Shown here: positions 3,756 to 64,000 of the stretch, one piece after another
Layout: each line of letters starts with the position of its first letter
Position numbering within the stretch: the first letter of the stretch is position 1
Origin: Bugula neritina
Lineage: Eukaryota > Bryozoa > Gymnolaemata > Cheilostomatida > Bugulidae
Assembly: GCA_964035545.1 (NCBI GenBank)
Contig: OZ037766.1
Span: 286,001-350,000 of the forward strand
Length of the DNA stretch: 64,000 nucleotides
Reading direction: 5' to 3'
Notes under the pieces: generated by a model
What the model saw: the letters and a program-made list of their open reading frames with translations, nothing else
Told to the model about the DNA's origin: nothing
The model's database searches: none
Program-made: the position numbers and the translations under genes

Positions 3756-3785
3756 GATAATTAATTTCTACTGTGTGTCTTGTAG

Positions 3786-3917
<132 letters not shown>

Positions 3918-4035
3918 TAGGGAATAGGGCTATACATGTGTAGTTAGTACTAGTCAAGACTCTATCTGCTGAAGCACTGGACCTTCAAGTCATGTCAAAT
4001 TATGCTACACTGGAGAATTATTGACACAAAACTGT

Positions 4036-15643: not shown

Positions 15644-16121
15644 ATTCCTCAGAGTAACAGCTTCTTGCACTCACTTTAGACACAGTAAATATAGGAGACA
15701 ACTCCTAGCTTTTAATGTACATTGGAAACCTTTTACAGCAGTTAATAGATCCTACATTATAGTTGGTAATAGTTAGCAGACCAAGTGTTATATATTTACA
15801 GTGTCTGTCACTATCAAGACATGAGAACCACCTGCTATATACATGTCAACAAAGTGACATATGTCAACTGGTGTGACAGGTACAGCAACTGTCATTAATA
15901 TAGTAATTAAATAACAATAAAATAAAAAATGAATAAATTATACAGTGCAACAAAGTTTATTAGTGGTTATCTCCACTTAGACAATCATAACACTGATAAT
16001 ACTATACAAATATCCAGCCGATAATTGGCCAATATCAACTAGTAGTGTTTAACTATTGACCTCTAAGTAGTAAATTCTTGTTACTAGATTGTCTATAATC
16101 TAGTTGATGTGAAGAGATACT
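15644..16121. other. Unit 1/unit 2 junction region
   Basis: AT-rich sequence without a recognised gene. Similarity to the left end of unit 3 (about 30,690) begins close to 16,020, while the sequence before about 15,960 matches the right end of unit 3 near 44,530-44,870. The duplication junction is therefore about 15,960-16,020. Confidence 0.55.
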
Positions 16122-19231: not shown

Positions 19232-21786
<2,555 letters not shown>

Positions 21787-32750: not shown

Positions 32751-32945
32751 ATGATAATGTAAGTTACTGAATTATATGTACTCTTAGTATGATACTGTAA
32801 GTTACTGAATTATATATACTCTTAGTATGATAATGTAAGTTACTGAATTATATGTACTCTTAGTATGATACTGTAAGTTACTGAATTATATATACTCTTA
32901 GTATGATAATGTAAGTTACTGAATTATATATACTCTTAGTATGAC
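32751..32945. repeat. 38-bp minisatellite, about 5 units (unit 3)
   Basis: Short version of the arrays at 571-1982 and 18,101-19,100. Confidence 0.9.
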
Positions 32946-33033: not shown

Positions 33034-35325
<2,292 letters not shown>

Positions 35326-42382: not shown

Positions 42383-44405
42383 AACTTTAACCAAGAATCA
42401 ACATTTGATTGGATAAACTAAATAACGACCAAGTAAGTAAGTAGTTAAAAGACCACAATTCTCAGTCCCCCATTAATAAACATGCATTATTTGATTAGTC
42501 AATGTGACAACACTCTTCGATTATGAAAGGACACGCCTACCAAATAATTCCCTAAGAACACTCATCTATCAAATATTATATCTACTGAACTAGAATAATA
42601 TGATATCTAATCAGATGTAATGAGGTTTTTAAACTGGAAATTCACAAAAGAAGTTTTGTATTGAAGCTTGCTCTTCAGGCTTTTACAAAAGATCACACCT
42701 GGTATCTATTATGACAGGAAGTCCATTTTCTATGATATTTCAAGTTCCCTGCAGTATTAGATATAAACTGTATGATTGAGTGCCGTGACATGGAAAGAAT
42801 CTGTGGTACTGAGACTGAGTTCTAGAGAGAATCTCTGTGGTACTACAGACACATGACTGTATATATAATACTAGAATGAAGGCAGCTCATCTCTATACTA
42901 CATCTTCAACTGAGGGGAAGTACCTACACGTGTTGTAGTGTGTAGATACATGTGGGCTGTCAGGTGACCCACCCTTAGTATTGTAGAAATAGTCAATATA
43001 ACTCTAGACTACATTATATCACATGAGAATGTTTATCTCAAGTATTATATTTATATTTAACAAGTGACAAATATTAAGATAACAGCACAGAAATATTCCT
43101 CCCCTATTTACTTAATCTAAAACTTAGTAACACAGTTTATAAAACACACCCCTTCACCTTGGGACTTTAACCTTCATCTAGCACATTTATCAGCTAAATA
43201 GTGTTTGTATAATACTTCATAATGCAGTTTTAGATAACAATATTTCCCATCAGTTTTGTTTTACAGATAAAAATTTTCCATCACACCCGCTGCCCATGTC
43301 TTTGAGCTGACTTACAGTCACAGTAACTATTGCTGACTATTCACTATGATTGACTCACTCAGTAATATTTCACAGTCAAGTCCCCACTATATCAATGTTG
43401 GTGTAGCTAATGTACACATCTTAGAGTGTCAACTAACTCACTACTCTATCAAATGTTACTCCATCTAACAGTTGATGTTGTCTCCCCCTTCAGCATTCTC
43501 ACTGCATGTTGAGACCCTGTAGCCTCTGTCCCATCTCTTCTCACAACTTCTCACTCATATCTGTTTGTTGACAGTCTGAGTCTACTCATGTTTATATGTT
43601 ACATTACATAATATAAGACTATGAGATAGTATGAGTCATGGGGTAATATGGACACTGCTTTACCAGATTGACACAAACACTACATAAATGAGCTTAGAGC
43701 TCAGAGCAAGGCAGAAAATACTTTACTGCTGTCTTATTGGTTAGAATATTTCACTTCCTACCAGCAGCTGGGTAGAATAATAGGCAGCAGGTAAGATAGC
43801 TGACTTTAACCTCTAGTCTGAAAGGGAGAGTAAAGTGGTACATGATTATATACAAGAGTTGGACTGTGTGAGACATCATTAAGTATAGAGTAATACTTGA
43901 GTGACCAAACTACCCTGAAATATGTCAAACTGTATTATATTTATAGCTATGCTAATAAAAGTGTGTAAATATTTAAGTTACATGCAAGTAATGAGATATT
44001 TTATCTACAAAACAAGTTCTTATTTCTCTAAAATGTTGTCAACCAGAAAAGGTTGGCACTAAAATATGTTAAGTTGTCACTTTAAAGTAATCAACATTAT
44101 CTTTATAATATTTATAATTATACCAATAAATCTCTTGGAATATTTAATCTGCACTCAAGTGTTTGGGATATTTTATCACAAAACAAACAAGTTTCTTTCT
44201 CTAAAGTGTTAGCAGCCATTAAAGGGTTGACACTAAAATATGTTAAGTAGCTGCTACCCCAGAGTGAATATATTATGTATTATCTTTATTATATTTATAT
44301 TACTTATTAGACATTGCTCAATAACAAGGAGTCATGTGGTACTAGTATCAGAGTGAGGTTTAGCTATTTCCTGTCTCTGTTATTAGTTGTCATGGAGACA
44401 AACTT
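42383..44405. other. Non-coding tail of unit 3
   Basis: Homologous to 12,247-14,260, including the imperfect internal direct repeat (GGTTGGCACTAAAATATGT near 44,050 and a related copy near 44,225). No gene is seen. Confidence 0.6.
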
Positions 44406-44520
44406 ACTTAGTGGGTGGTCACATGATTACTTAGTGGGTGGTCACATGATTACTTAGTGGGTGGTCACATGGTTACTTAGTGGGTGGTCACATGATTACT
44501 TAGTGGGTGGTCACATGATT
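44406..44520. repeat. 23-bp minisatellite, about 5 units (unit 3)
   Basis: Short counterpart of the roughly 60-unit array at 14,261-15,643. Confidence 0.95.
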
Positions 44521-46547
44521 ATTCCTCAGAGTAACAGTTTCTTGCACTCACTTTAGACACAGTAAATAAAGGAGACAACTCCTAGCTTTTAATGTACATT
44601 GGAATACTTTTACAGCAGTTAATGGATCCCACATTATAGTTGGTAATAGTTAGCAGACCAAGTGTTGGATATTTGCACTGTCTGTCACTATCAAGACATG
44701 AGAACCACCTGCTGTATACATGTCAACAAAGTGACACATGTCAACTGGTGTGACAGGTACAGCAACTGTCATTAATATAATAATTTTATAACAATATATT
44801 GAAAAAAGAATAAATTATACAGTGCAACAAAACTTATTAGTGGTTATCTCCACTTTGACTATCATAACTCTGATAATACTATACAAATAGATTTCAGTTC
44901 ATTTTGAATAAATAGTTACCTTCTGGTGTAATACACAATACGTAATGTCACGCTTACACTAACAAGTTTGAAAACGTAGGAAAAGTCTCCAACTTTAGAT
45001 TGCATACTACCTCCTTTATGCTGCATATTTTAAATTAGCAATACTAGCTATTGGGGCCATGATCATTATTGGCAAAAGCTTTACAAGATAGGATAACTCC
45101 TAATGGAAATGAATGTAATATCATGTGACGGAGTATTTTTAGTAATTGACCAATCACATTTATTGTTTTTCAAAGCTCGCATTTTCAAGTGAGACTAGCA
45201 TGCTAAAAAGAGAAATAACAGCTTTTACATAGGCTTGAGAAAGTAATTATTAATAATATTATTATCATAATCTTGAGCCAAAACCGACTATTGTAAATGT
45301 GATTATTATAAAAAACTGTAAACATAAGTTTTTAGCGATTTTCACTAGTCAGTGCTGTATTAGTATATAAATTATGTAATCACTGTAGAATCAATTAATG
45401 AATTAAACTTCTAGTTCTAGAGTTCTAGTTGTAGTTCTACTTCTAGTTTTTTTATTTTCCTTAGTTTTAGCCTTTTGCCTTTGGCTACAAGTTCCAATTT
45501 ATTAATTGTTGAAATTAAATTTATTATTTTAATTTATATTTTTATTATTTATTATGAATACTAATTTAATATAACCTTTGAGTTTGAGTCTTTAGTTATT
45601 ATTTATTATTACTAAAACTAAAAGTAAAACTCACTCGAAGTGATTATGATCATCACACTGGACGGGGACCGCCCTAAAGAGAAGGGGTTTGCTGCATATG
45701 GGTCATATGTTAAACAGTCATTGGTCAATAGTCATACAGCTAGTATTGGTTAGGCTGTATTGACTGAACAGAAACTTAAACCTGTCTTAACTCTTATGGC
45801 GCTCTCTGAAATATTGCCTTGGAGTTGATTGTGGCGAATTTTCAGATCCTGGATAGTCCTGATAGAATTATATTTATTATACTTATAGATTTGGATGATG
45901 CAAATAATTTTAATAATTTTAAAATTAAATGCTGATAGTAGTATTTTTACAAAACTTGAAGTTGTAAATAGCTTGAAATTGGATTAATATACTGCAAAGT
46001 TTGAAAACATGAGGTTGCAATGTCTTAGTTTAAATTTTAGTTTTTGCATTAAGCTTTCCATAAATTTAATAACTTGTAATAATTTAATTTTTTTTATTAA
46101 GACTTGTTTGAAGTTCTTTAAATAGTTCACTACAGTTCCAATGTTTTCAAAGAACTTGATGGCTGTTGCATCTGGCATTGGCTTTGATGTTGGTTTTACT
46201 CTGTCTGTAGTATTAGGATTTTGGCATACTCAAATTTAGTTTCCTGTATTACTATAACTTTCAGGTATTGTCACTCAAGTCATTAGTATTTCTAGTATCA
46301 GTGTTTTCTCCTATTTTTGGTATTGTGCCTCATAACCTTGAATTACCATCTTTTGGTGTTGAGGGAATACTCTAGAATCTAAGAGAATAACAGTTTCTCT
46401 GCAAATACCATAAACACAATACTTGAACACTTGTGGTCATGGCAGAGTTTCACTTTGATTACATGTTGAAGTGCATTCATCAGTTGCTTATATAATTGTT
46501 CACATTGATAAGGTTTAGCCTAATTTCTTGACTTATCATGATTCCAG
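44521..46547. other. End of triplication and region upstream of CEP192-like gene
   Basis: Similarity to unit 1 continues to about 44,890; beyond that the sequence is single-copy and AT-rich. ATTGGT (inverted CCAAT) motifs at about 45,720-45,755 could belong to the promoter of the downstream gene. A minus-strand frame at 45984-46178 shows no recognisable domain. Confidence 0.45.
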
Positions 46548-49500
46548 ATGGAAGATGAGGGAAACACTGGCACCCCTCAAAAGCAGATGTTTGTTGAAGA
46601 GACATTACTGTCTACTCCAATACCTCTAGTAGAGTCAACACGTTTGTAAGTTCAGCTTTCATGTCTAGTCTCATCATCAGTCTGTCACATCTCATATTCA
46701 ATCTGTCACATCACATATTCAGTCTGTCACATCTCATATTCAGTCTGTCACATCACATATTCAGTCTGTCACATCACATATTCAGTCTGTCACATCTCAT
46801 ATTCAGTCTGTCACATCTCATATTCAGTCTGTCACATCACATTCTCTCAACAGACCAGCTAACATGCTGTCCCGTATAACAACGTTCATTCCATGCTAAC
46901 AACACTCCCGCCGGGGGCCAAATATACATTGCTGCGTTACACGTATCCTAGGATTTTTAACTCTTAGTTAAAACTAAGAGGCACAATTCTTGCACCTCTG
47001 AGACTTGGAAGTAATACATTACAGTTGGCAATTTTATAACCTTGACCTTTAGCATGGTGTCTGTAATGTTTCTTGTTTGTTGTACGTTTGCGTGGGTAAT
47101 AATTAAGATGAGACCATTGGAATAATGTATCGTGACGTTTATTATTGTAAGGTATAAAGTATGCAGCTTGACAGCATAGAAAGAACTGCTGGTGATCATA
47201 AGTGTAAGGTATATATATATCACATAGGAATGAATCACAAATCTACGACATCATATGTATTAATAGCATATTACTGTTAAGTATATAAATAACTCAGCAA
47301 TTGTAAACAACATTATACTACATCTCCCCTTTCTAAATGTTTTATAATAGAAAAGCATAAAACAACAGTATAAGCATGATGAAAAGTTGGCATGCAACTA
47401 AACTAATTCTCACTAATGATTATAATGACATAATAAATGAATACAAACTCTGCATGCTATTAATTGCTAGGTGCTGGTGCAAACCTCAACTACTACCCAT
47501 GGCATGTTATTGTTAATTCTACATGTCATAACCTAATCTCTCTGGTTTTCTAACTAACCTTCCTCTCTGAGTTCTATATGCACCTGGAGGATTTACATTC
47601 GAACTATTTTCAGATTGTGAACTGTTTGAATCATCAGCTTGATCTATAGGAGGGCCAGGTACGGCAGGGATAGATCTGTGCATAGGGGGCAATACAGGAG
47701 TAGATATTTGTTGAGGCTCATTTGTTAAAGTTATATCCCCTCTAGTTCTACGGTACAATTTATTCTCGTTGGTTACTACCCAGTATGACCTTGGACCAGT
47801 CAGGTCTTGTTTTTGAATTTTTCCCAAAATCCACTTATCATTAATTTTTGCACGAACTCTCTGACCAGGTTTTAAAACTGAAAGTTCAGATTTAGCATGT
47901 CTGTCATAATTTAATTTCTGCGTAGATTTGACAATCTCAAATTCATTTTGAATTATCTGTTTGTCATAGCTATTTGGAAAAAGCGTTTTCAAATCTCTAG
48001 GAAGAGTGTCTGGCAGCACTCTACCTTGTAGTAGTACAGCTGGCGATGGTATTTTATCACTTATTGGAGTGTTTCTCAAATTTCTCAAACCACCATAAAA
48101 TGTTTTGCCTTCAGCTTTGCATTTTTTTAGTAAAGCTTTTGCAGTCCTAACGTACCTTTCTGCACACCCATTACTTTGTGGATACCCTGGTGAAGATGTC
48201 AAATGCTCAATGCCTTGTTCATTCAAAAATATTTTGAATTGTTGACTAGTAAACTGGGGCCCATTATCACTTCTAAGTACACATGCAACCCCAAAATCAG
48301 CAAATGTTTTCTCAAAACACTGAATCACTGATGAGCTTGTTGTCGTCTTTAATGGCTCAATAATTAACCACTTGATAAAGTAATCAACAATTAACATGAA
48401 ATCATTTCCGTCCAAAGAAAACAAGTCAGCTGCTACTGTATGAAAAGGATATTTAGGTATCTCACTAGCCATCATTGGCTGCCTACATTGCTGCTCAATG
48501 TTTTCCCTACATTGCACGCATGACTGAATCATTTCCTCAATTTGATTGTTTATTCCAGGCCAAAACACCGCTGTTTTTGCCAATGCCTTTGTTTTCACAA
48601 TGCCTTGATGTGACTTATGTAATTTTTGCAAAATTTCTGTTTGTTTTGACATTGGTACTATCAGCTTTGAACCAACAAACAGAAATTCATCACAAATTCC
48701 AATTTCATTACGCCATAGCCAATATTTTCTTCCAACAAAGCTGCACGATTTCCTATATGGCGGCCATCCATTAATTACCAATAGTTTGAGTGCCTGTAGC
48801 TCTCTGTCGCTCAAAACTGCTTGTTTGTATTCTGCTTTAGCTTGGTCAGAACAAAATATCATTTCAGGCAACTTGTTCATAGGATCAAATTCAGCAACAT
48901 TTACAGATGTATCTATGTCAGGGTATGATGCTCTACTCAGCATATCAGCTATGTACATTTCATTACCTTTCTTGTACACTAATTTGAAATCGTAGGACAT
49001 TAACTCAAGCAGCATTCTCCTAATTCTAGGATTTGTGTCCTCTATGTTTTTCTCCACTATGCCTAGTAAAGGCTTGTGGTCAGTTTGCACAAAAAATTTG
49101 CTACCTCCATAGACATAATAATGAAACTTCCTACAGCCAAACAACACTGCTAACAATTCCTTTTCTATTTGTGCATAGCGCTTCTGAGTGTCAGTTAATG
49201 ACTTGGCTGCAAATTCCACTGGTTGGCCTTTTTGCATTAAAACTGCCCCCAAGCTAAATGAACTAGCATCCACTTGCAGTGTTATTTCTTCATCAGAATT
49301 AAAATGCATCAAAAGTGGTGCATTTGAGACAAGTTGCTTAATTTTAACAAATGCATTATTGTGTGCCTTTTCCCAAATAAAAGTTGTATTCTTTTTCAAC
49401 AGCTGTCGCAATGGTTGTGTTTCATTTGCCAAATCAGGGCAGAATTTTCCCATATAATTAACAAACCCAAGAAATCGTTGAACATCATTTTTGCATGTGG

Positions 49501-52500
49501 GAGTCAGCATTTCCTGAATTGCTTTAGCCCTATTTCTTTTTGGCAAAATTCCATCACCTGAAATTTCATGGCCTAGAAAGTTAACTACTTGTCTACCTAT
49601 AGCACACTTCTCAGGGTTTAATTTCAGATTTATCTCACGGCATCTCAACAAAACTTCCCTAAGCCTTCGGTCATGAATCTCTTTAGTAGGTGCATGGATT
49701 AGCAAATCATCAATATAGATTTCAATTCCCTCTATATCACCTAGTTTTTGACACATTGTTTTATGAAAAACCTCAGCACTTGAATTTAACCCGAACGGCA
49801 GTCGTTTGTAGTTGTAACGCCCATAGGGTGTAATAAATGTTGTCAATTTACAACTTTCTACATCAAGTGGTATCTGGTGAAAACCATTTGTAGCATCTAG
49901 AGTACTAAAGAATTTTGACTGGCCTATCCTGCTGTATATCTCTGTAGTTGTAGGCAACTTATAGTACTCTCTCATGATCTCTTTGTTCAACAGCCTAGGA
50001 TCTAAGCAAAGCCTTATTTGGTTGTTAGGCTTTTCCGCTACTACAATGGGTGAAACCCAATCTGAAGGCTCATTGCATTTTTGAATAATTTCTAATTTCT
50101 CAAGCCTATCAAGCTCTGCTTTTAGCTTTGGTTTTACATTTATGGGAACAGGTCTAACATTACATACTACTGGCTTAGCCTCAGGTCTTAGTGTAATGTG
50201 GTGTTCTATGTCTAATTTTCCAAACCCCTTAAAAACATCCTTGAATTCTTCAACTATCAACTTACTGCTATCAGTATCTACTTGCTCTACCTGATCTATT
50301 CCTATTAGACCAAGCTCCTTGATGGTGGGCAAGCCCAAAAGAGGTGTGTTTTTAGCAGTGGTTACATAGAACTCAGATTTGTAGGTTTTACCCCTAAAAC
50401 TGAATGGCAGTTCTACGACTCCATCTACTGGAATAACATGTCCAGTGTAGCCTGTGAGCCTTGTACCAGCTTTTCTAAGTTCCCTACTTACATCAAGATT
50501 TTCAAAAATATCTCTTGTCAAAACATTAACTTGTGCACCTGTATCAACTTTCATGGCAACCTTAGTTTTACCAAAAACAAAATTTTCAAACCAAACTGAA
50601 GAATTGCATGCATTAAGCTTAACATTGCTACATAATTCTACATTAAACATGCATGGTTCCTCATTGACATCTGTAGTAGCATCTGGTACTTGTACAGCAT
50701 TAGTCGTAGATTTCGTTATAGCCTTAGATCTACATACCTTAGCAAAGTGATTAAATTTACCGCATTTGTTACAGGATTTTCCATACGCTGGGCAGTGTCT
50801 CCTTCTGTGACTAGATCCGCAGCTATGGCAGTTGTTAATAATATCCATTGTATGTTTTTTTGGCTGAAAATTGTTTGAGTAATCTTTTTTCCTTATTGCA
50901 TCTACATCTGCTGGTTGCTCTGGTGCAGCACTCGCAAGGTTTCTCTGTATTATCTCCTTGGCTCTCATGCGTTGTGATACGTTTTCTAGCGTTAACTGAT
51001 CTTCTGTCAGTTGCTGTAGCTCAATTGACAGAGCCTTGTCTTTCATCCCTGTCAGCAATCTATATTTAATGTTATCATTTACCGCATTGCCAAATTCGCA
51101 ATGTTGTGCTAAAGAGTATAGTGCCCTGATATACTCCTCATTGTTTTCATTAGGTTCCTGAGTTCTTCCATTGAACTGCACAATGTGATGTGCCTTGTTT
51201 GTCCTAGGTTTGAAATATGTGTCAAATGCTTCCTTTACCTTATCATATTTCTTTCTGTCATCATTTGTGAGTGGTAGCTGTATAAAAATGTCCTCGGCTG
51301 CTTCTCCCATCGTATATAATAGACTGTCTATTTGTAAGTCGTCAGCTTCTTTTGACATTTTTGTTACATTGTGATATCTGCCATATCTTCGTATCCACTC
51401 ACCCCATCCACTTGGGTTAGTGAAGTCAAATGATGAAGGTGCTCTGGTAGCCATTATTCTTCTTTCAGGTCACACACTTCTGACACCATGTAATGTTTCT
51501 TGTTTGTTGTACGTTTGCGTGGGTAATAATTAAGATGAGACCATTGGAATAATGTATCGTGACGTTTATTATTGTAAGGTATAAAGTATGCAGCTTGACA
51601 GCATAGAAAGAACTGCTGGTGATCATAAGTGTAAGGTATATATATATCACATAGGAATGAATCACAAATCTACGACATCATATGTATTAATAGCATATTA
51701 CTGTTAAGTATATAAATAACTCAGCAATTGTAAACAACATTATACTACAGTGTCACTCCACTTTCCTAGCTGTCTCGCATCAGCACGCTGACTTAGCATC
51801 TGCATTTCAGTTTCATTTATCTCTGCTTTGTTTTAGTGAAGGGAGGGACTCGGCGTCCAGCATATTGGATCTCAATGGTGAGTATTCATTGGTTCTCGGA
51901 TGTGCAACAACATCTCATTGGTTTATCTGATGATATCTATTATCTGATTGGTTTATCTAATGCTGTGCTATGTCACACTCTCACAGTGTCACACAATGTC
52001 ACACTCTCGTTACAGATCTGAGTACCCTGTCAGTGAAGGACAATGTGAGACCCAAACCACCAACAGCTCTGTTCCCTGGTAAGAGAACTAAACCTCACAG
52101 GCTGCTGTTTAGAGTTTACAGCTAATATCTCTGTTGTTCATGTAGTTTAGGGTGGTCAGCTGTTAGCCCTACTACTACAGTTACAGCCTCTCCTGGTACT
52201 CTGTCTATCAGCTACGGAGTAGACAGTTGGGGTACAATGTTGTTAGAAGATGAAATATTGGGCTTTTGAAGGCTTTGCATTTGATAGTTGTGTTGTTGTT
52301 ATGGTACAATGTGTTGGCTGCCAATGTGTTTGAAATGTACTCTCTGTGCTGTGAATAGAACTTAAAATAATGTGTATGAATAAACAGTAACCAACTGGTA
52401 GTTGAACCAAATAATTGAAAGGATATAAATACTGTGATTAATATTTGTTTTATACAACTTTTATTATTATCCTAATAATATAATAATATATTAATAGTAA

Positions 52501-55500
52501 TATATATCTGGTAATATATCTATAGTAATATATCTATAGTAATATATCTATGGTAATATATCTATGGTAATATATCTATGGTAATATATCTATGGTAATA
52601 TATCTATGGTAATATATCTATAGTAATATATATATGGTAATATATTTATGGTAATATATCTATAGTAATATATCTATGGTAATATATCTATGGTAATATA
52701 TCTATGGTAATATATCTATGGTAATATATCTATGGTAATATATCTATAGTAATATATCTATGGTAATATATCTATAGTAATATAGCTATAGTAATATATC
52801 TATGGTAATATATCTATGGTAATATATCTATGGTAATATATCTATGGTAATATATCTATGGTAATATATCTATAGTAATATATCTATGGTAATATATCTA
52901 TAGTAATATATCTATAGTAATATATCTATGGTAATATATCTATAGTAATATAGCTATAGTAATACGTGTAGTAAGTAGATAACAAAGTTGCTGAAGAAGT
53001 CAATGCTGTTTCAGATAACTCGAGTCAGAAGAGCAAATCATCGAGTGAGTCAGGCTCAAAGAGTAGAATTCCTCGACTTTCTACGAAACCTTCCCCCGCA
53101 GTGACTGAGCAAACAGGAAACAGTAATTCCCCCGCAGTGACTGAGCAAACAAGAAACAGCACCTACGTAGTGGGTGTGTCAGAGAAGAACGAGTCATCAT
53201 TGGACAAGACAGTCAGCACTGGTCAGCCGAGCCGAGCAATATCCTCGTCTACAGAGGAAGTAGAGGGAGTGGATGCAGTTACCCCCTCCCAGTCACTCAA
53301 TCTCATTCAACTTGACACTCCTGAATCACTTCCTGTTAGCTCACTTCCTGTCCACTCACTTCCTGTCAGCTCACTTCCTGTCAGCTCACCTTCTGTTAGC
53401 TCACTTCCTGTTAGCTCACTTCCTGTTAGCTCACTTCCTGTTAGCTCACTTCCTGTTAGCTCAGAGGAAGTTGGCGAGTCCCTGGAACCTCCCGATGGAG
53501 ACTCGACTCTGAAGCTGGAGACTGCCGACCTGATGACATCACCAGATGCACAGGAAACAGGAAGTGTGGACAGAGAAAGAGCAGAACGAGATCTCCCGGC
53601 AGTCGGTTGTCTCTCTCAGAGTCAGCAGAGGACAGCCGACTCTGTTCCCGGAGAAAGTATTCCCATAGACCATGAGCTGACTCTCCACTCAGTTTCTGCT
53701 GCCGTGCATGCTGCCGAACCAACCAATCAGAGTGGAGTATTGAATACAGAAGACCTGTCTGCAACAGCTGACAATACGGGCTCACAGTCTCTCGGCCTCT
53801 CACTCTACCTCTGCCCTGTAGAGATCTCTGCTATCACTGACTCCTCCCACTCAGGTATTTCCTGTTAGACAATAATATTATATAGTATATCAGCTAGTAG
53901 AGTATAATACTGTATTATATAGTATATCAGTTAGTAGAGTATAATACTGTATTATATAGTATATCAGCTAGTAGAGTATAATACTGTATTATATAGTATG
54001 TCAGCTAGTAGAGTATAATACTGTATTATATAGTATATCAGTTAGTAGAGTATAATACTGTATTATATAGTATATCAGTTAGTAGAGTATAATACTGTAT
54101 TATATAGTATATCAGCTAGTAGAGTATAATACTGTATTATATAGTATGTCAGCTAGTAGAGTATAATACTGTATTATATAGTATATCAGCTAGTAGAGTA
54201 TAATACTGTATTATATAATATATCAGTTAGTAGAGTATAATACTGTATTATATAGTATATCAGCTAGTAGAGTATAATACTGTATTATATAGTATATCAG
54301 CTAGTAGAGTATAATACTGTATTATATACACACAAACATACTACATTAACAGGTAAACATGGACACACAATAGGACACACTCTATCTAGTAGCTATTCCT
54401 TTCTTGTTTGTAGTTTAATGTTTACCGCCATTCATAGTTGTGTTGACAATGCACGCTATAAATAGGTTTTAAATAGGTGTTTAGTAACTAATTAGTTACT
54501 CTTGTTTAGTTTACTAAAATGACAAGCTTTGCCTGTTTGACAGAGTCAGTTTGTTGTTTGCTGCCACTGGTTCATGCTGCCGCCAGAGCTGCCTTGTTAG
54601 CTTCTCATTGGCAGCAACTGATTTAGTGGTTAGCTGTCTCAATCACTCTCAGTCACTGACACTCACTGATACTCACTGACACTCAGTCACTGACACTGAG
54701 TCACTGACTCACTATGACTCTGCACTTCCTGTCTATGATCACAGAGGAACTGGACAGCACGTCCTCTGTCAGCATGGTGAGTGATGCCAATGACTCAGTC
54801 AAGCCGTGCTACTCTGAAGAGGTCATCCAAGCACTGATGTCTAAAGACGGGAAGACGGTCCTCAAGGCCATTTCACAGTGAGTTCTAAACTTGCGAGCAG
54901 CTCATTGAGCTCTATACTTGCGAGCAGTTCATTGAGCTCTATACTTGCGAGCAGTTCATTGAGTTCTATACTTGCGAGCAGTTCATTGAGCTCTATACTT
55001 GCGAGCAGTTCATTGAGTTCTAGGAAACGGTTTATTATCTTCGGCTGCACTTATTGTAGGATTTCTCAGACTACAAGGAGCACGTCTGCTGCTATCAACA
55101 CGTCTGCTGCTCTCAACACGTCTGCTGCTCTCAACACGTCTGCTACCGAAGCTGCACTTTGCTCATCCCCAAGTAACGGTATGTTCTGCTGAAGCTCTAT
55201 CTATGTAATCAAGTGCTAATTTACTGCCTAATATCAGTTTGCCATTTGAGTGTGTATAGTTTATATTTCCTCAGCAGCTTCTCTCTCTCAGACTAGCCCT
55301 GCGACTCAGCCCACTTCTCAGACTAGAGTTGTGGATTCCTTCTTTGGCTCAGAGCTAAATGAACTGTCACACCTCTCTAGCAGCAGGAGAACGGCTAATC
55401 AGGTACTTTACATGTGTTACTACACTACACCACATGTGTTACTACACTACACCACATGTGTTACTACAGTACACCACATGTGTTACTACACTACACCACA

Positions 55501-58500
55501 TGTGTTACTACTCTACACCACATGTGTTACTACAGTACACCACATGTGTTACTACAGTACACTACATGTATTACTACACTACACTACATGTGTTACTACA
55601 CTACACTACATGTGTTACTACACTACACCACATGTGTTACTACAGTACACTACATGTATTACTACACTACACTACATGTGTTACTACACTACACTACATG
55701 TGTTACTACACTACACCACATGTGTTACTACATTACACCACATGTGTTACTACACTAGCTACAGACAGTCTACACATGCTCAGTGTGACACTAATGTGAC
55801 TGCAGGAGCTGAGTGACCCCGCTGGAGTCACGACAACCAGTCACACCCTCCTCTGTGACCAGACAGGACTCTCTATCAGCTCGCTGAGGTCGAGTCCTGA
55901 GAGACGCCCTTCCCCGCTGGCTGCCGGCAGCTACTCTCAGGCTATCAGCTCCGCCGTCTGTCAGCACCTGTTTGCTGAGCTCACCGAAGGCCAGACCTCA
56001 CTGACCAATCAGAGAGAGGAGTCACTGGAGAAGACGCTGGTGGTGGAGGAACCCCTTCCGGAACCTTCCCCGTCAGTCTGCAAGTCTGTCGCGGAGGAGA
56101 TTGTCCAATCAGAAGGAGGCATGCAGGTGGTCAGTCCGATACTGGAGTCACAGGCTATGAGCCCTCCAGGAGGGGCTTTACCTGCCCACCCTCTGGACAA
56201 GACGGAGATAGCGGCGGTTGGCAGAGACCTGAGTTGTGTGACGACCCCCGGTGTACCGGCGTGCGAGAGCTCCCAGATAGAGAAGTTCACATCTCCCACT
56301 GACTTCAACTGTCGGTACTTGAAATCTGTAGATATCAGTGATGGTTCGGTTGAGCTGGCAGCGACATCTACTAACTACAGGTGGGAAAACTCCTCAATAT
56401 TAGTGCAGCTCTGCTTACAGTAGAGTATACAGTGTAATATACTACTCACAGTATACAGTATAATATACTACTCACAGTACACAGTATAATATACTACTCA
56501 CAGTATACAGTATAATATACTACTCACAGTATACAGTATAATATACTACTCACAGTACACAGTATAATATACTACTCACAGTATACAGTATAATATACTA
56601 CTCACAGTATACAGTATAATATACTACTCACAGTATACAGTATAATATACTACTCACAGTATACAGTATAATATACTACTCACAGTATACAGTATAATAT
56701 ACTACTCACAGTACACAGTATAATATACTACTCACAGTATACAGTATAATATACTACTCACAGTATACAGTATAATATACTACTCACAGTATACAGTATA
56801 ATATACTACTCACAGTATACAGTATAATATACTACTCACAGTATACAGTATAATATACTACTCACAGTATACAGTATAATATACTACTCACAGTATACAG
56901 TATAATATACTACTCACAGTACACAGTATAATATACTACTCACAGTACACAGTATAATATACTACTCACAGTACACAGTATAATATACTACTCACAGTAT
57001 ACAGTATAATATACTACTCACAGTATACAGTATAATATACTACTCACAGTATACAGTATAATATACTACTCACAGTATACAGTATAATATACTACTCACA
57101 GTATACAGTATAATATACTACTCACAGTATACAGTATAATATACTACTCACAGTATACAGTATAATATACTACTCACAGTATACAGTATAATATACTACT
57201 CACAGTATACAGTATAATATACTACTCACAGTACACAGTATAATATACTACTCACAGTATACAGTATAATATACTACTCACAGTATACAGTATAATATAC
57301 TACTCACAGTATACAGTATAATATACTACTCACAGTATACAGTATAATATACTACTCACAGTATACAGTATAATATATATTTATTCAGGTCAAGGACAAA
57401 TCTGTGTAAGCCTGTGCTCTCTGACTTGACAGAAGTTGAGGAAGGGGGCGGGTTTAAACATACTCAAGTTCGAAATTGGCTGACTTCACAGTGTTCAGGA
57501 TGTAAGTACATCACCTGGTACAGTGTAAGTATATCACCTGGTACAGTGTAAATATATCACCTGGTACAGTGTAAGTATATCACCTGGTACAGTGTAAGTA
57601 CATCACCTGGTACAGTGTAAGTATATCACCTGGTACAGTGTAAGTATATCACCTGGTACAGTGTAAATATATCACCTGGTACAGTGTAAGTATATCACCT
57701 GGTATAGTGTAAGTACATCACCTGGTACAGTGTAAGTATACCATGTTGCAGCTGTCACGCAGTCCGAGGCCGTCACCATGTACAACCAGGTCACGCTGGA
57801 CTCAATGCATGCTCATACTCAGTGTAGATCTAACTCAATGACCACCACCTTTCATACTGTCCACAATGCCTTGTCTGATGACGTCACACTTCCTCCGGCT
57901 GACAAGTTGCTGCAAGTACCTGACAAGTTGCTGCAAGTACCTGGCAAGCTGAAGGTGCCTGGTGCACACTGCACTCTCACCAATACTAACGTCATTATAC
58001 CAGTTACCAACCTATCTAACAGGTTAGACTGTGTTTGTATTCTGTATACACGCTAATGTAGTCAGTAACTCTATGTTGTGTCTGTTAGTATGCTGTACTT
58101 ACTGACAGGTGGTGTCAGGTGCTTGTTATATTACTCTGTCAACTCTGAGACTATACTATGCTTGCTGACAGGTGGTGTCAGGTGCTTGTTATATTACTCT
58201 GTCACCTCTGAGACTACACTATGCTTGCTGACAGGTGGTGTCAGGTGCTTGTTATATTACTCTGTCACCTCGGAGACTACACTATGCTTGCTGACAGGTG
58301 GTGTCAGGTGCTTGTTATATTACTCTGTCACCTCTGAGACTATACTATGCTTGCTGACAGGTGGTGTCAGGTGCTTGTTATATTACTCTGTCACCTCTGA
58401 GACTACACTATGCTTGCTGACAGGTGGTGTCAGGTGCTTGTTATATTACTCTGTCACCTCTGAGACTATACTATGCTTGCTGACAGGTGGTGTCAGGTGG

Positions 58501-61500
58501 CTGTCTCCCTAAAGAATCACCAGATAGATGGAATCTCACCTGCTACAAGCTGTCTCTTCATCAGAACGTCTGACTCACTCATAAGACCGTCGGCCACCTC
58601 ATCCTTATCTGTGAGTTGGCAGCTGCCGTGTGTCTATTACTCGTATGTCTTATTCTACTCTCTAGTCAGTAGTCAGTAGAGAGTGTTCACTGTGTACTAC
58701 TCTGTAGGTGTGGTGGTAGTCAGTAGAGAGAGTGTACTACTCTGTAGGTGTGGTGGTAGTCAGTAGAGAGTTCACTGTGTACTACTCTGTAGGTGTGGTG
58801 GTAGTCAGTAGAGAGTGTGTACTACTCTGTAGGTGTGGTGGTAGTCAGTAGAGAGTTCACTGTGTACTACTCTGTAGGTGTGGTGGTAGTCAGTAGAGAG
58901 TGTGTACTACTCTGTAGGTGTGGTGGTAGTCAGTAGAGAGTTCACTGTGTACTACTCTGTAGGTGTGGTGGTAGTCAGTAGAGAGAGAGTTCACTGTGTA
59001 CTACTCTGTAGGTGTGGTGGTAGTCAGTAGAGAGTTCACTGTGTACTACTCTGTAGGTGTGGTGGTAGTCAGTAGAGAGTTCACTGTGTACTACTCTGTA
59101 GGTGTGGTGGTAGTCAGTAGAGAGTGTTCACTGTGTACTACTCTGTAGGTGTGGTGGTAGTCAGTAGAGAGAGAGTTCACTGTGTACTACTCTGTAGGTG
59201 TGGTGGTAGTCAGTAGAGAGTTCACTGTGTACTACTCTGTAGGTGTGGTGGTAGTCAGTAGAGAGTGTGTACTACTCTGTAGGTGTGGTGGTAGTCAGTA
59301 GAGAGTTCACTGTGTACTACTCTGTAGGTGTGGTGGTAGTCAGTAGAGAGTGTTCACTGTGTACTACTCTGTAGGTGTGGTGGTAGTCAGTAGAGAGTGT
59401 TCACTGTGTACTACTCTGTAGGTGTGGTGGTAGTCAGTAGAGAGTGTGTACTACTCTGTAGGTGTGGTGGTAGTCAGTAGAGAGAGTGTACTACTCTGTA
59501 GGTGTGGTGGTAGTCAGTAGAGAGTTCACTGTGTACTACTCTGTAGGTGTGGTGGTAGTCAGTAGAGAGAGTGTACTACTCTGTAGGTGTGGTGGTAGTC
59601 AGTAGAGAGTGTGTACTACTCTGTAGGTGTGGTAGTAGTCAGTAGAGAGTTCACTGTGTACTACTCTGTAGGTGTGGTGGTAGTCAGTAGAGAGTTCACT
59701 GTGTACTACTCTGTAGGTGTGGTGGTAGTCAGTAGAGAGAGTGTACTACTCTGTAGGTGTGGTGGTAGTCAGTAGAGAGAGTTCACTGTGTACTACTCTG
59801 TAGGTGTGGTGGTAGTCAGTAGAGAGTGTGTACTACTCTGTAGGTGTGGTGGTAGTCAGTAGAGTGTTCACTGTGTACTACTCTGTAGGTGTGGTGGTAG
59901 TCAGTAGAGAGAGTGTACTACTCTGTAGGTGTGGTGGTAGTCAGTAGAGAGAGTTCACTGTGTACTACTCTGTAGGTGTGGTGGTAGTCAGTAGAGAGAG
60001 TTCACTGTGTACTACTCTGTAGGTGTGGTGGTAGTCAGTAGAGAGTTCACTGTGTACTACTCTGTAGGTGTGGTGGTAGTCAGTAGAGAGTGTGTACTAC
60101 TCTGTAGGTGTGGTGGTAGTCAGTAGAGAGTGTTCACTGTGTACTACTCTGTAGGTGTGGTGGTAGTCAGTAGAGAGAGTGTACTACTCTGTAGGTGTGG
60201 TGGTAGTCAGTAGAGAGAGTGTACTACTCTGTAGGTGTGGTGGTAGTCAGTAGAGAGAGTTCACTGTGTACTACTCTGTAGGTGTGGTGGTAGTCAGTAG
60301 AGAGTGTTCACTGTGTACTACTCTGTAGGTGTGGTGGTAGTCAGTAGAGAGTGTTCACTGTGTACTACTCTGTAGGTGTGGTGGTAGTCAGTAGAGAGTT
60401 CACTGTGTACTACTCTGTAGGTGTGGTGGTAGTCAGTAGAGAGTGTGTACTACTCTGTAGGTGTGGTGGTAGTCAGTAGAGAGTGTTCACTGTGTACTAC
60501 TCTGTAGGTGTGGTGGTAGTCAGTAGAGAGTTCACTGTGTACTACTCTGTAGGTGTGGTGGTAGTCAGTAGAGAGTGTGTACTACTCTGTAGGTGTGGTG
60601 GTAGTCAGTAGAGAGTTCACTGTGTACTACTCTGTAGGTGTGGTGGTAGTCAGTAGAGAGTGTTCACTGTGTACTACTCTGTAGGTGTGGTGGTAGTCAG
60701 TAGAGAGTTCACTGTGTACTACTCTGTAGGTGTGGTGGTAGTCAGTAGAGAGTGTTCACTGTGTACTACTCTGTAGGTGTGGTGGTAGTCAGTAGAGAGT
60801 GTTCACTGTGTACTACTCTGTAGGTGTGGTGGTAGTCAGTAGAGAGTGTGTACTACTCTGTAGGTGTGGTGGTAGTCAGTAGAGAGAGTGTACTACTCTG
60901 TAGGTGTGGTGGTAGTCAGTAGAGAGTTCACTGTGTACTACTCTGTAGGTGTGGTGGTAGTCAGTAGAGAGAGTGTACTACTCTGTAGGTGTGGTGGTAG
61001 TCAGTAGAGAGTGTGTACTACTCTGTAGGTGTGGTAGTAGTCAGTAGAGAGTTCACTGTGTACTACTCTGTAGGTGTGGTGGTAGTCAGTAGAGAGTTCA
61101 CTGTGTACTACTCTGTAGGTGTGGTGGTAGTCAGTAGAGAGAGTGTACTACTCTGTAGGTGTGGTGGTAGTCAGTAGAGAGAGTTCACTGTGTACTACTC
61201 TGTAGGTGTGGTGGTAGTCAGTAGAGAGTGTGTACTACTCTGTAGGTGTGGTGGTAGTCAGTAGAGTGTTCACTGTGTACTACTCTGTAGGTGTGGTGGT
61301 AGTCAGTAGAGAGAGTGTACTACTCTGTAGGTGTGGTGGTAGTCAGTAGAGAGTGTGTACTGTGTACTACTCTGTAGGTGTGGTGGTAGTCAGTAGAGAG
61401 AGTTCACTGTGTACTACTCTGTAGGTGTGGTGGTAGTCAGTAGAGAGAGTTCACTGTGTACTACTCTGTAGGTGTGGTGGTAGTCAGTAGAGAGTTCACT

Positions 61501-64000
61501 GTGTACTACTCTGTAGGTGTGGTGGTAGTCAGTAGAGAGTGTGTACTACTCTGTAGGTGTGGTGGTAGTCAGTAGAGAGTGTTCACTGTGTACTACTCTG
61601 TAGGTGTGGTGGTAGTCAGTAGAGAGAGTGTACTACTCTGTAGGTGTGGTGGTAGTCAGTAGAGAGAGTGTACTACTCTGTAGGTGTGGTGGTAGTCAGT
61701 AGAGAGAGTTCACTGTGTACTACTCTGTAGGTGTGGTGGTAGTCAGTAGAGAGTGTTCACTGTGTACTACTCTGTAGGTGTGGTGGTAGTCAGTAGAGAG
61801 TGTTCACTGTGTACTACTCTGTAGGTGTGGTGGTAGTCAGTAGAGAGTTCACTGTGTACTACTCTGTAGGTGTGGTGGTAGTCAGTAGAGAGTGTGTACT
61901 ACTCTGTAGGTGTGGTGGTAGTCAGTAGAGAGTGTTCACTGTGTACTACTCTGTAGGTGTGGTGGTAGTCAGTAGAGAGTTCACTGTGTACTACTCTGTA
62001 GGTGTGGTGGTAGTCAGTAGAGAGAGTTCACTGTGTACTACTCTGTAGGTGTGGTGGTAGTCAGTAGAGAGAGTGTACTACTCTGTAGGTGTGGTGGTAG
62101 TCAGTAGAGAGTGTGTGTACTGTGTACTACTCTGTAGGTGTGGTGGTAGTCAGTAGAGAGAGTGTACTACTCTGTAGGTGTGGTGGTAGTCAGTAGAGAG
62201 TGTGTACTACTCTGTAGGTGTGGTGGTAGTCAGTAGAGAGTGTTCACTGTGTACTACTCTGTAGGTGTGGTGGTAGTCAGTAGAGAGTTCACTGTGTACT
62301 ACTCTGTAGGTGTGGTGGTAGTCAGTAGAGAGAGTTCACTGTGTACTACTCTGTAGGTGTGGTGGTAGTCAGTAGAGAGAGTGTACTACTCTGTAGGTGT
62401 GGTGGTAGTCAGTAGAGAGTGTGTGTACTGTGTACTACTCTGTAGGTGTGGTGGTAGTCAGTAGAGAGAGTGTACTACTCTGTAGGTGTGGTGGTAGTCA
62501 GTAGAGAGTGTACTACTCTGTAGGTGTGGTGGTAGTCAGTAGAGAGAGTGTACTGTGTACTACTCTGTAGGTGTGGTGGTAGTCAGTAGAGAGTGTGTAC
62601 TACTCTGTAGGTGTGGCTAAACACGGCCTTAGCTGGGCTCCATGAGGTCGACATACAGATCAGTGTGGAGGGGGAGGTGTGTGACCCAGCCGTATGTGCT
62701 CTGTCCATCAACATGGAGGTCCCAAGACTGGAGGTTTGTGACTTATTATACTATACTGTATACTATGTATTACTATACTATATACTTTGTGTTACTATAC
62801 TGTATACTATGTATTACTATACTGTATACTCTGTACTACTATACCATATACTCTGTACAATTATACCGTATACTCTGCACTACTATACTGTATACTATGT
62901 ATTACTATACCGTATACTGTGTATTACTATACTGTATACTGTGTATTACTATACTGTATACTCTGTATTACTATACTGTATACTCTGTACTACTACACCG
63001 TATACTGTGTATTACTATACCGTATTACTTTAGCTGGTAGACAACCAGGACAATATCCTCGACTTTGGACCTCTCGGATTCGGACAGACTAAAACCGTAC
63101 CGCTGACTATAAAGAACACCTCAAATATCCACCTTGCTGCTCTACTCAAAGTTGTTCAGGTATTTCTCACTCTCCTACTAGGTTTTCTAGAGGTCATGAC
63201 CTCTGTGACCTCTAGCAGCGTGCTGCGGATTGATTGAGGTCAGTGAGATGTTATGTCATGAGTATACGTTATATATCAGTTAGTAGTGTAGACACCTGCC
63301 AGCTGACACCTGCTGACACCATGTCTCCATGTTGCAGGACACCCACAGCAGGTGTAAGTTGAGTCTAGACTCCAAGACCGACACTCACAGCACTAGGGGA
63401 GACGACTCCTCTCACAACCTCAGTCTGGAAACACAACTCCAAGCGAATGAAACTCAAACAGTATTGGTGACTCTCAGGGCCCCCGACACTCGTGGTCCAG
63501 GTGCGTGTCTTGTATGTAGTGGGCTGCTGTCGACTGCTGAGCAGGTCAAAGGTCATCGGAGTCATCGTTGGAAGATGTAATAGTCAAACTGATACTAAAC
63601 TATAACACACACTCGGCATACTGTTTACCTTGAACTTCTGTATTATCTTATCTGTGGACTCTGAGGTCACATGACTTGTATAAGTTGTGACATGACTCCG
63701 TCTCTGTAGATGGTTCACCGGAGCTTCTCGGCAGCAGGATTGACATCTGTCAGGTCAGCGCTGTCAGTCGTGACCCTCTGCTCACAGTCAACGCAACATG
63801 TCTGTGCGGGTACGCTAGCATACAGTTCCCTACCCAGTACCACGTGAGTATCTCGGGCTATTTTACTCATTCAGGTGTATGACAACTCCCTGTTTACTCA
63901 TTCATATGTATGACAACTCCTTGTTTACTCATTCAGATGTACGACATGTGGTGTGAGGCCAACAGCCAGGCTGAAGAGGAAGTGCCGCTGAGGAATTGTG
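46548..64000 (+). CDS. CEP192: CEP192/SPD-2-like centrosomal protein (3' end outside window)
   Basis: Sixteen exons join in phase: 46548-46645, 51837-51877, 52016-52078, 53015-53854, 54745-54877, 55060-55178, 55275-55402, 55806-56380, 57389-57501, 57752-58022, 58487-58610, 62611-62733, 63034-63159, 63338-63500, 63710-63843 and 63937 to the edge. The start MEDEGNTGTPQK follows an AG, so an untranslated exon upstream is likely. The N-terminal half is low-complexity, rich in Ser, Pro and acidic residues. From exon 10 the order of motifs (RWCQV, IRPSAT, then ILDFGPLGFGQTKTVPLTI) corresponds to human CEP192 around its ASH (ASPM-SPD-2-Hydin) segments (RWLQV, IIRPHAT, VLDFGDLTYGGWKALPL). CEP192 recruits PLK and Aurora kinases and pericentriolar material to build centrosomes. 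Most introns hold minisatellites, and an LTR element lies in intron 1. Distant from vertebrate CEP192 outside the motifs, so the family call is moderately sure. Confidence 0.75.
46675..46850. repeat. 21-bp minisatellite in CEP192-like intron 1
   Basis: About eight units of CAGTCTGTCACATCTCATAT plus one base, with CATCACAT variants. It starts about 30 bp after the donor of the first visible exon. Confidence 0.9.
47057..47061. repeat. Target-site duplication GTGTC (left)
   Basis: GTGTC directly abuts the left LTR; the matching copy lies at 51750-51754 directly after the right LTR. Confidence 0.9.
47062..47322 (-). repeat. 3' LTR of the Gypsy element
   Basis: 261 bp, apparently identical to 51489-51749. 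On the minus strand it begins TGTAGTATAATG and ends CATTACA, and it contains an AATAAA and a TTTATATA box. The short open frames across the LTRs are not genes. Confidence 0.95.
47519..51454 (-). CDS. Gag-Pol polyprotein of the Ty3/Gypsy retrotransposon
   Basis: One uninterrupted 1,311-codon frame, with no frameshift between gag and pol. The order is Gag; two CCHC zinc knuckles (C209, C212, H216, C221 and C228, C231, H236, C241); an aspartic protease DTG at 304-306; reverse transcriptase with YIDD at 580-583; RNase H (acidic residues near 729, 766 and 792, and IADMLSR); integrase with HHCC zinc ligands (H946, H949, C979, C982) and a DD35E triad (D1010, D1063, E1099). Protease, RT, RNase H and integrase in this order define Ty3/Gypsy (Metaviridae) rather than Copia elements. 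No env-like frame follows. The start is the first ATG after the primer-binding site, with a 34-bp leader. All catalytic motifs are intact, so the element may be active. Confidence 0.97.
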   Translation of the reverse strand: MATRAPSSFDFTNPSGWGEWIRRYGRYHNVTKMSKEADDLQIDSLLYTMGEAAEDIFIQLPLTNDDRKKYDKVKEAFDTYFKPRTNKAHHIVQFNGRTQEPNENNEEYIRALYSLAQHCEFGNAVNDNIKYRLLTGMKDKALSIELQQLTEDQLTLENVSQRMRAKEIIQRNLASAAPEQPADVDAIRKKDYSNNFQPKKHTMDIINNCHSCGSSHRRRHCPAYGKSCNKCGKFNHFAKVCRSKAITKSTTNAVQVPDATTDVNEEPCMFNVELCSNVKLNACNSSVWFENFVFGKTKVAMKVDTGAQVNVLTRDIFENLDVSRELRKAGTRLTGYTGHVIPVDGVVELPFSFRGKTYKSEFYVTTAKNTPLLGLPTIKELGLIGIDQVEQVDTDSSKLIVEEFKDVFKGFGKLDIEHHITLRPEAKPVVCNVRPVPINVKPKLKAELDRLEKLEIIQKCNEPSDWVSPIVVAEKPNNQIRLCLDPRLLNKEIMREYYKLPTTTEIYSRIGQSKFFSTLDATNGFHQIPLDVESCKLTTFITPYGRYNYKRLPFGLNSSAEVFHKTMCQKLGDIEGIEIYIDDLLIHAPTKEIHDRRLREVLLRCREINLKLNPEKCAIGRQVVNFLGHEISGDGILPKRNRAKAIQEMLTPTCKNDVQRFLGFVNYMGKFCPDLANETQPLRQLLKKNTTFIWEKAHNNAFVKIKQLVSNAPLLMHFNSDEEITLQVDASSFSLGAVLMQKGQPVEFAAKSLTDTQKRYAQIEKELLAVLFGCRKFHYYVYGGSKFFVQTDHKPLLGIVEKNIEDTNPRIRRMLLELMSYDFKLVYKKGNEMYIADMLSRASYPDIDTSVNVAEFDPMNKLPEMIFCSDQAKAEYKQAVLSDRELQALKLLVINGWPPYRKSCSFVGRKYWLWRNEIGICDEFLFVGSKLIVPMSKQTEILQKLHKSHQGIVKTKALAKTAVFWPGINNQIEEMIQSCVQCRENIEQQCRQPMMASEIPKYPFHTVAADLFSLDGNDFMLIVDYFIKWLIIEPLKTTTSSSVIQCFEKTFADFGVACVLRSDNGPQFTSQQFKIFLNEQGIEHLTSSPGYPQSNGCAERYVRTAKALLKKCKAEGKTFYGGLRNLRNTPISDKIPSPAVLLQGRVLPDTLPRDLKTLFPNSYDKQIIQNEFEIVKSTQKLNYDRHAKSELSVLKPGQRVRAKINDKWILGKIQKQDLTGPRSYWVVTNENKLYRRTRGDITLTNEPQQISTPVLPPMHRSIPAVPGPPIDQADDSNSSQSENSSNVNPPGAYRTQRGRLVRKPERLGYDM
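51489..51749 (-). repeat. 5' LTR of the Gypsy element
   Basis: 261 bp, upstream of gag on the minus strand. It is followed on that strand by the tRNA-Leu type primer-binding site. Confidence 0.95.
51750..51754. repeat. Target-site duplication GTGTC (right)
   Basis: Second copy of the 5-bp duplication, continuing into intron 1 of the host gene. Confidence 0.9.
52490..52965. repeat. 14-bp minisatellite in CEP192-like intron 3
   Basis: About 34 units of GGTAATATATCTAT with ATAGTAATATATCT variants. It is AT-rich and ends about 50 bp before the exon 4 acceptor. Confidence 0.92.
53325..53465 (+). repeat. 15-bp coding repeat (LPVSS) in exon 4
   Basis: About nine in-frame units of CTTCCTGTTAGCTCA encode LPVSS repeats, with variants LPVHS and PSVSS. 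It lies inside the low-complexity N-terminal half of the CEP192-like protein. Confidence 0.9.
53878..54328. repeat. 37-bp minisatellite in CEP192-like intron 4
   Basis: About twelve units containing TATATCAGCTAGTAGAGTAT. It begins about 20 bp after the exon 4 donor. Confidence 0.93.
54880..55022. repeat. 27-bp minisatellite in CEP192-like intron 5
   Basis: About five units containing TATACTTGCGAGCAGTTCAT. The first unit starts on the exon 5 donor itself (GTGAGTTCTAAACTTGC); later units have TTGAGTTCT or TTGAGCTCT in its place, so the GT is not repeated. Confidence 0.9.
55081..55146 (+). repeat. 18-bp coding repeat (NTSAAL) in exon 6
   Basis: Three to four in-frame units of AACACGTCTGCTGCTCTC encode NTSAAL, inside exon 6 of the CEP192-like gene. 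Confidence 0.8.
55410..55755. repeat. 22-bp minisatellite in CEP192-like intron 7
   Basis: About 16 units containing ACATGTGTTACTACACTACA, starting within 10 bp of the exon 7 donor. It creates long Tyr- and Thr-rich spurious frames in all three plus-strand frames. Confidence 0.93.
56425..57376. repeat. 26-bp minisatellite in CEP192-like intron 8
   Basis: About 36 highly uniform units containing ACAGTATAATATACTACTCA, with ACAGTACACAG variants. It ends about 12 bp before the exon 9 acceptor. Confidence 0.95.
57502..57740. repeat. 23-bp donor-bearing minisatellite in CEP192-like intron 9
   Basis: About ten units at a 23-bp period beginning with the exon 9 donor itself (GGAT/GTAAGT at 57502). 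Most later units (57525, 57571 and on) carry a perfect GTAAGT; a few have GTAAAT. The rest of the unit reads ATATCACCTGGTACAGT. Confidence 0.93.
58102..58490. repeat. 63-bp acceptor-bearing minisatellite in CEP192-like intron 10
   Basis: CTGACAG recurs exactly every 63 bp at 58102, 58165, 58228, 58291, 58354, 58417 and 58480. The last is the true acceptor of exon 11. Each earlier unit duplicates that acceptor and about the first 14 bases of the exon (GTGGTGTCAGGTG) before diverging. Because 63 is divisible by three, a long repetitive open frame runs through it, in a frame other than that of the exon. Confidence 0.95.
58660..62610. repeat. Giant acceptor-bearing minisatellite in CEP192-like intron 11
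   Basis: About 3.9 kb of tandem units of roughly 36-49 bp. A constant core (TACTACTCTGTAGGTGTGG, then TGGTAGTCAGTAGAGAG) is joined by variable linkers (TGTG, AGTG, TTCACTGTG, TGTTCACTGTG and others). The core contains CTCTGTAG/GTGTGG, which is the exon 12 acceptor plus the first six exon bases; the true site at 62610/62611 is the last unit. I estimate 90-100 units. Confidence 0.96.
62745..63025. repeat. 22-bp minisatellite in CEP192-like intron 12
   Basis: About 13 units containing TATTACTATACTGTATACT with many single-base variants. It starts about 12 bp after the exon 12 donor and ends just before the exon 13 acceptor. Confidence 0.9.
63864..63946. repeat. 31-bp acceptor-bearing triplication before exon 16
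   Basis: TACTCATTCA recurs at 63864, 63895 and 63926 with a 31-bp period. The third copy is the true acceptor (ATTCAG/ATGTACGACA); the first reads ATTCAG/GTGTATGACA and the second ATTCAT/ATGTATGACA. So the splice site and the first ten exon bases have been duplicated twice. Confidence 0.85.

Follow-up and report, generated by a model that had tools for sequence, protein, structure and literature searches.

The window analysed here, a 64,000-nucleotide stretch of Bugula neritina DNA, carries in intron 11 of a CEP192/SPD-2-like centrosome gene a minisatellite array of ninety units (58669..62616, forward strand; 38-49 bp per unit), each of which incorporates a copy of the intron's own acceptor. 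The array is a mirage in the anatomical sense, namely a minisatellite lying across an exon-intron boundary, and represents an extreme example of a repeat type already known from amphioxus. It is most probably the product of a nearly neutral mirage expansion, in which the copy adjoining the exon is spliced and the decoys leak little.

The CEP192-like gene (46548..64000, forward strand) extends past the end of the window and was modelled with sixteen exons, of which the first may not be the true first exon of the gene, and fifteen GT-AG introns, giving a single open frame of 1,038 amino acids. Exon 12 (62611..62733, forward strand; 123 nt) is in phase 0 at both ends, with the true acceptor at 62610|62611. 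A Pfam Cep192_D1 domain (E 1.9e-11, 44.2 bits) was detected at residues 61-158 of the fragment searched, in which exon 12 starts at residue 133, and thus extends across the exon 11/12 junction. Removal of the first twelve exon 12 residues lowers the score from 44.2 to 31.9 bits (12.3 lost), which places the start of this exon where the original prediction had put it, in the last unit of the array, the 90th copy being found at 62611. The open frame and the domain crossing the junction likewise bear out the phase 0 frame proposed at that time. Cep192_D1 is followed by Cep192_D2, with a score (24.8 bits) slightly below the cut-off of 27. No homologues of product residues 700-1038 were found at E <=0.01 among 3,839 candidates from a large protein collection, and a search of PDB sequences with the product returned weak matches alone, to Hydin and two others (E 0.13-1.1). 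The exons of the gene themselves include minisatellites, four of which have units that are multiples of three (53091-53159, 53326-53463, 55081-55144 and 57899-57948; 36, 15, 18 and 21 bp, respectively), encoding for example a repeated SLPVS. Furthermore, intron 1 contains an LTR retroelement on the minus strand (47062-51749), with one 1316-aa open frame incorporating reverse transcriptase, RNase H and integrase domains; its end repeats (47062-47322 and 51489-51749) are identical over 261 bp, indicating a recent insertion.

Tandem Repeats Finder analysis of the window delimits the intron 11 array at 58669-62616, with ninety copies, which upholds the prediction (58660..62610), with corrections concerning its two ends. 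At its 3' end the array continues 6 bp into exon 12 and so spans the exon-intron boundary, with these six exon 12 bases, and no more, being common to the unit and the exon. At its 5' end it begins 58 bases 3' of the donor (TCT|GTGAGTT, 58611), which is not part of the array. The spacings between units are 38, 40, 45, 47 and 49 bp, and twelve distinct unit sequences could be distinguished, with 36 of the 49 alignment columns invariant; variation is restricted to the AGAG(AG/TG/TTCACTG) linker and a single G/A position within GTGGTAG. The splice signal CTCTGTAG|GTGTGG is present in all ninety units, confirming that it is the acceptor of this very intron that the array repeats. The number of repeated acceptors falls at the low end of the 90-100 that had been anticipated, comprising the true site and 89 CTCTGTAG|GTGTGG decoys on the forward strand, the first and last of which have their first base past the AG at 58708 and 62571. 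The string CTCTGTAGGTGTGG occurs ninety times within 58600-62720 and nowhere in the rest of the window, and is followed by TGGTAG in 87 copies, TAGTAG in two and CTA in one, the true site at 62611.

A scan of the 215.8-Mb genome (295 contigs) with the decoy form CTCTGTAGGTGTGGTGGTAG gave 87 forward-strand matches, all within the intron 11 array, and none on the reverse strand, and the same pattern read backwards, used as a control, had no matches; counts of repeats in such a scan may be lower bounds. Given this confinement to a single array, the repeat looks like a local expansion rather than a member of a dispersed family. The locus was recovered once in the scan, without a second haplotype version of the array. 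No match to the unit pattern was observed in viral and prokaryote contigs, and searching the window for Rfam families and tRNAs returned nothing. An origin of the intron itself by tandem duplication of an AGGT-containing sequence was also considered. This model places both donor and acceptor within copies of the same AGGT unit (PMC3443670), while the intron 11 donor lies outside the array and is not part of a unit, so that intron 11 lacks the property which defines such intron gain, and this origin was rejected.

When collapsed to one array unit, intron 11 (58611..62610, forward strand; 4,000 bp) would measure ~100 bp. We infer that the founder was a segment of ~45 bp across the intron 11/exon 12 boundary (~39 bases of intron and 6 of exon) which underwent tandem duplication in an intron of about this ~100-bp size, and that growth to ninety copies may have proceeded by slippage and unequal exchange. 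The latest step would be an exact internal duplication of 1.3 kb. The source copy (59266..60575, forward strand) and the second copy (60668-62024, 47 bp longer) are without mismatches, and match exactly over two stretches, one of 686 bp at a shift of 1402 and one of 663 bp at a shift of 1449, between which the second copy has one extra 47-bp unit. As no base has changed between the copies, the duplication is recent, unless it was produced by the assembly. Such an exact duplication could arise from an overlap error, and one published mirage looked aberrantly assembled (PMC3087553), which raises the alternative of a real array whose length or internal duplication arose in the assembly. This is most unlikely, however, considering that the window sits within a 33.6-Mb contig, that the two copies differ by a 47-bp unit and that other long arrays of a similar style are present. 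Throughout an expansion of this kind the outermost copy would keep an intact acceptor beside exon 12, preserving the protein and leaving the array free to grow, and for this reason the growth would be nearly neutral.

Three further arrays in the CEP192-like gene span a splice site. The first, in intron 10 (58098..58499, forward strand; 63-bp unit), extends 13 bp into exon 11 and contains the exact acceptor GCTGACAG|GTGGTG six times, the true site (58487) among them, while that of intron 15 (63862..63946, forward strand; 31-bp unit, 2.7 copies) extends 10 bp into exon 16 and has two exact acceptors ACTCATTCAG, again including the true one. On the donor side, an array in intron 9 (57501..57740, forward strand; 23-bp unit) has the final base of exon 9 as its first and holds nine exact TGTAAGTA sites, among them the true donor. 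A 27-bp array in intron 5 (54879..55022, forward strand) begins one base past the donor; its copies are degenerate and lack the GT, and it was left out of the splice-spanning count. A donor counterpart of the intron 11 acceptor array is found in a neighbouring ORP8-like gene (L025:683-1751), where the donor and 17 coding bases are repeated ~31 times in a 29-bp unit; TCTACATAGCTGAGCAG|GTGTGTGTCTAG is exact in 29 of the copies, one of which is the real donor. Alignment to the ORP8 structure PDB 8p7a (E 1.9e-144) fixes the junction as TFYIAEQ|ISHHPP, and read-through into a decoy gives GTG TGT GTC TAG. In the preceding intron of this gene (L025:170-501), TCTAG|GTA occurs ten times, including the real donor.

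The consequence of using an intron 11 decoy follows directly from its reading frame. Joined to exon 11, 87 of the 89 decoys read GTG TGG TGG TAG, as had been predicted for most of them, and the other two GTG TGG TAG, giving a stop after three and two codons, respectively; the expectation that a wrong choice leads to nonsense transcripts thus holds for every decoy. The inner copies of the intron 10, 15 and 9 mirages (5, 1 and 8) also all lead to stops, so that every exact decoy of the four mirages in this gene (103/103) gives one. Skipping of exon 12 would keep the frame (123 nt, phase 0 to 0). The true acceptor is no better than the decoys in its local sequence, sharing the same 14-mer, and its pyrimidine content (0.53) is the fourth lowest among the fifteen acceptors of the gene. 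Local strength can thus not explain the choice of the last copy, and a preference for this copy would presumably rest on proximity to the exon, or on recognition of the exon together with the exon 12 donor. The spliceosome would accordingly select the exon-proximal copy in each array, that is the last acceptor here and the first donor in the donor mirages, with recognition of a real exon through its downstream donor as the simplest basis, and the 89 inner copies would be mostly silent, any that are used leading to a stop within three codons.

Two other means of distinguishing the last acceptor were evaluated and set aside. RNA structure hiding the decoys is not supported, since the predicted folds are no more stable than those of shuffled sequences (z 0.64 and 0.18 in one test; -0.49, 0.78 and 0.17 in another). 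The array unit can form a hairpin around its AG|GT, for which exon 12 has no pairing partner, and the predicted openness of the last acceptor ranks first of ninety at -12..-1, second at -16..-5 and 64th at -4..+1, but the absolute probabilities are very small (at -12..-1, 9e-4 for the last site compared with an average of 3e-5 for the decoys). A branch-point motif is uninformative as a discriminator, as its background rate is equally high; yTnAy occurs at -45..-14 in 52/90 units and is absent before the true site, and it precedes just 8/15 acceptors of the gene model, its frequency before 3,000 randomly chosen AGs being 49.8%.

The conserved TAG|GTGTGG of the units suggests yet another route to the last copy. 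Splicing to a decoy would create an AG|GT junction whose GTGTGG could serve as a new donor, and repeated re-splicing would walk exon 11 along the array until the last copy is reached. This sequence is present at 90/90 sites and on direct reading matches GTRAGT at four of six positions, as do 6/15 of the real donors of the CEP192-like gene, and AGGT sites able to act in either role have been reported, including those of the human UBC tandem array (PMC10809524). This reading is nevertheless considered very unlikely. GTGTGG is weak as a donor, the other mirages are less suited to such a process (GTGGTG in intron 10 and ATG at the true site of intron 15), and as G is common after an acceptor in exons, the AG|GT can be due to chance. 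If it were true, the intron could hold 89 perfect decoys without loss, the use of a decoy being corrected rather than destroyed.

The intron 11 array is part of a general growth of minisatellites in this region, as arrays were found in 23/31 modelled introns of five genes (31 arrays in total). Arrays with a period of at least 7 account for 22.0% of the window and, in the 264 kb surrounding it, for 22.4% of the N-free sequence (58,646 bases), compared to 9.4% of one 50-kb sample (contig C3). Six of the 31 arrays span a splice site, five according to their Tandem Repeats Finder ends and one (ORP8-like intron 3) added by eye, where random placement predicts ~10.5; the simulated probability of so few is 0.009 for five and 0.032 for six, under a crude model in which each array is founded as one unit placed randomly in the array-collapsed intron, with intron lengths collapsed by hand and arrays treated as independent. 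In the CEP192-like gene alone, 3/11 main arrays span an acceptor, with 2.6 expected under random placement. As splice-spanning arrays are no commoner than expected at random, the arrays do not target splice sites. Within this small sample, covering five genes of one region and some introns placed by a rough gene finder alone, such arrays look mildly avoided, and the deficit hints at less than complete neutrality, the cost of decoys being small but not zero.

The 31 introns comprise fifteen of the CEP192-like gene, eight of the ORP8-like gene, two of a gene which we take to be AK8, and four and two, respectively, of genes presumed to be short-chain-dehydrogenase-like and METTL21-like. ORP8-like introns 2-7 fall within the PDB 8p7a alignment, and introns 1 and 8 were placed by the gene finder, with the acceptor of intron 8 probably a few bases off, as two residues are missing there. 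Pfam ADK is the sole support for the AK8 gene, and the dehydrogenase-like and METTL21-like introns come from the gene finder. The first intron of AK8, the first of the counted dehydrogenase-like gene and the third of METTL21-like were left out as unsure or paralogous, as were all introns of two more dehydrogenase-like copies, a Rieske-like gene and an RCC1-like gene. The tuned ab initio gene finder recovered 15/16 exons of the gene on which it was trained, but in a kinase copy it took an array for coding sequence and it chained through retroelements elsewhere, and a list of 59 introns derived from it was dropped.

A kinase region, presumably MAPKAPK-like, is present three times in the window, ~14-18 kb apart (571-1982, 18105-19100 and 32751-32944; Pfam Pkinase). 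No splice-spanning array was observed in the kinase introns inspected, which were kept out of the 31-intron count. The three regions have in common a 38-bp array (~37, 26 and 5 copies) with GTAAGT and TTAG in its unit, forming a natural length series in paralogues, and a 12-bp array in the intron just past the HRDLK codons (3486-3741, 19940-20308 and 33766-34179; ~21, 31 and 35 copies). A 23-bp array (TTACTTAGTGGGTGGTCACATGA) occurs at both 14261-15644 (~60 copies) and 44404-44521 (~5 copies). Several tandem short-chain-dehydrogenase-like copies, encoded on the minus strand in L012, L013 and L015, also differ in the lengths of their intron arrays.

The abundance and placement of the arrays bear on the further proposal that the decoys tune expression, with a fixed share of transcripts using them and being lost to nonsense-mediated decay, so that array length sets CEP192 output. 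The stop after two to three codons at 89/89 decoys, with several exons downstream, would suit such a role, and in human ABCA7 repeat length is reported to be inversely related to expression and to raise skipping of the next exon (PMC5954066). However, stops are usual whenever 40-4000 intronic nucleotides are included, similar arrays sit in other introns and in the neighbouring gene, splice-spanning arrays are no commoner than random placement predicts, and an array that recently changed by 1.3 kb is a poor basis for a set point. Retention of a single ABCA7 unit (~2%) is, moreover, reported to be independent of repeat length (PMC5954066). Nothing in the sequence calls for a tuning role and the array is explained without it, making this proposal very unlikely, and a nearly neutral expansion with little use of the decoys continues to be favoured.

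The choice of splice sites is usually studied with sites of unequal strength. Here, the ninety acceptors, as well as the ~30 donors of the neighbouring gene, are alike in local sequence, position being their main difference, and the use of such identical acceptors would measure the rule by which position acts, whether exon proximity, transcription order or re-splicing. Minisatellites that span a boundary furthermore show how short introns can reach kilobases.

In the human interferon-induced gene 6-16 (G1P3/IFI6), a minisatellite reportedly supplies several splice donors, on the donor side rather than the acceptor side of intron 11. No mirage of comparable copy number was found in the literature searched, the coverage of which was partial. 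The amphioxus mirages described in Adh3, the globins BflGb6 and BflGb9, TnC and PGBD5 (PMC3087553, PMC3902484) resemble the intron 11 array in being minisatellite-like duplications of an exon-intron boundary whose copies carry splice signals; they occur on the donor or acceptor side, as do the arrays found here, and their copy number is variable. They differ in scale, the two BflGb6 haplotypes having six and three units of 150-160 bp and Adh3 having units of 10-72 bp, whereas ninety units of 38-49 bp occur in intron 11 and ~31 of 29 bp in the ORP8-like gene. The amphioxus mirages are reported not to disturb splicing or the mRNA (PMC3087553, PMC3902484), a precedent with which a strong preference for the last acceptor would fit. 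Minisatellite expansion at exon boundaries can change splicing, as described for variable internal tandem repeats in recent human paralogues, which average ~4 repeats of 30 bp and are discussed as a source of new introns (PMC2812944). Human UBC shares with intron 11 the evenly spaced tandem AG|GT sites, but its 228-nt repeats are coding, in frame and stochastically spliced (PMC10809524), while the intron 11 array is intronic and contains stops. The VNTR of human ABCA7 intron 18 consists of at least 12 copies of a 25-bp unit, with alleles of 315 to 9,711 bp, each unit beginning with a donor (PMC5954066), and is thus restricted to the donor side, in contrast to the acceptor side in intron 11. 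One unit is reported to be retained in ~2% of ABCA7 transcripts, leading to a premature stop, and skipping of the next exon reaches 12-45% depending on tissue and rises with repeat length (PMC5954066), an effect of length measured in that human gene. Long intronic repeats may thus do harm, and by analogy this exon skipping counts against a wholly innocent array, while the amphioxus mirages and ABCA7, taken together as precedents, mostly agree with an intron 11 array that would be largely harmless.
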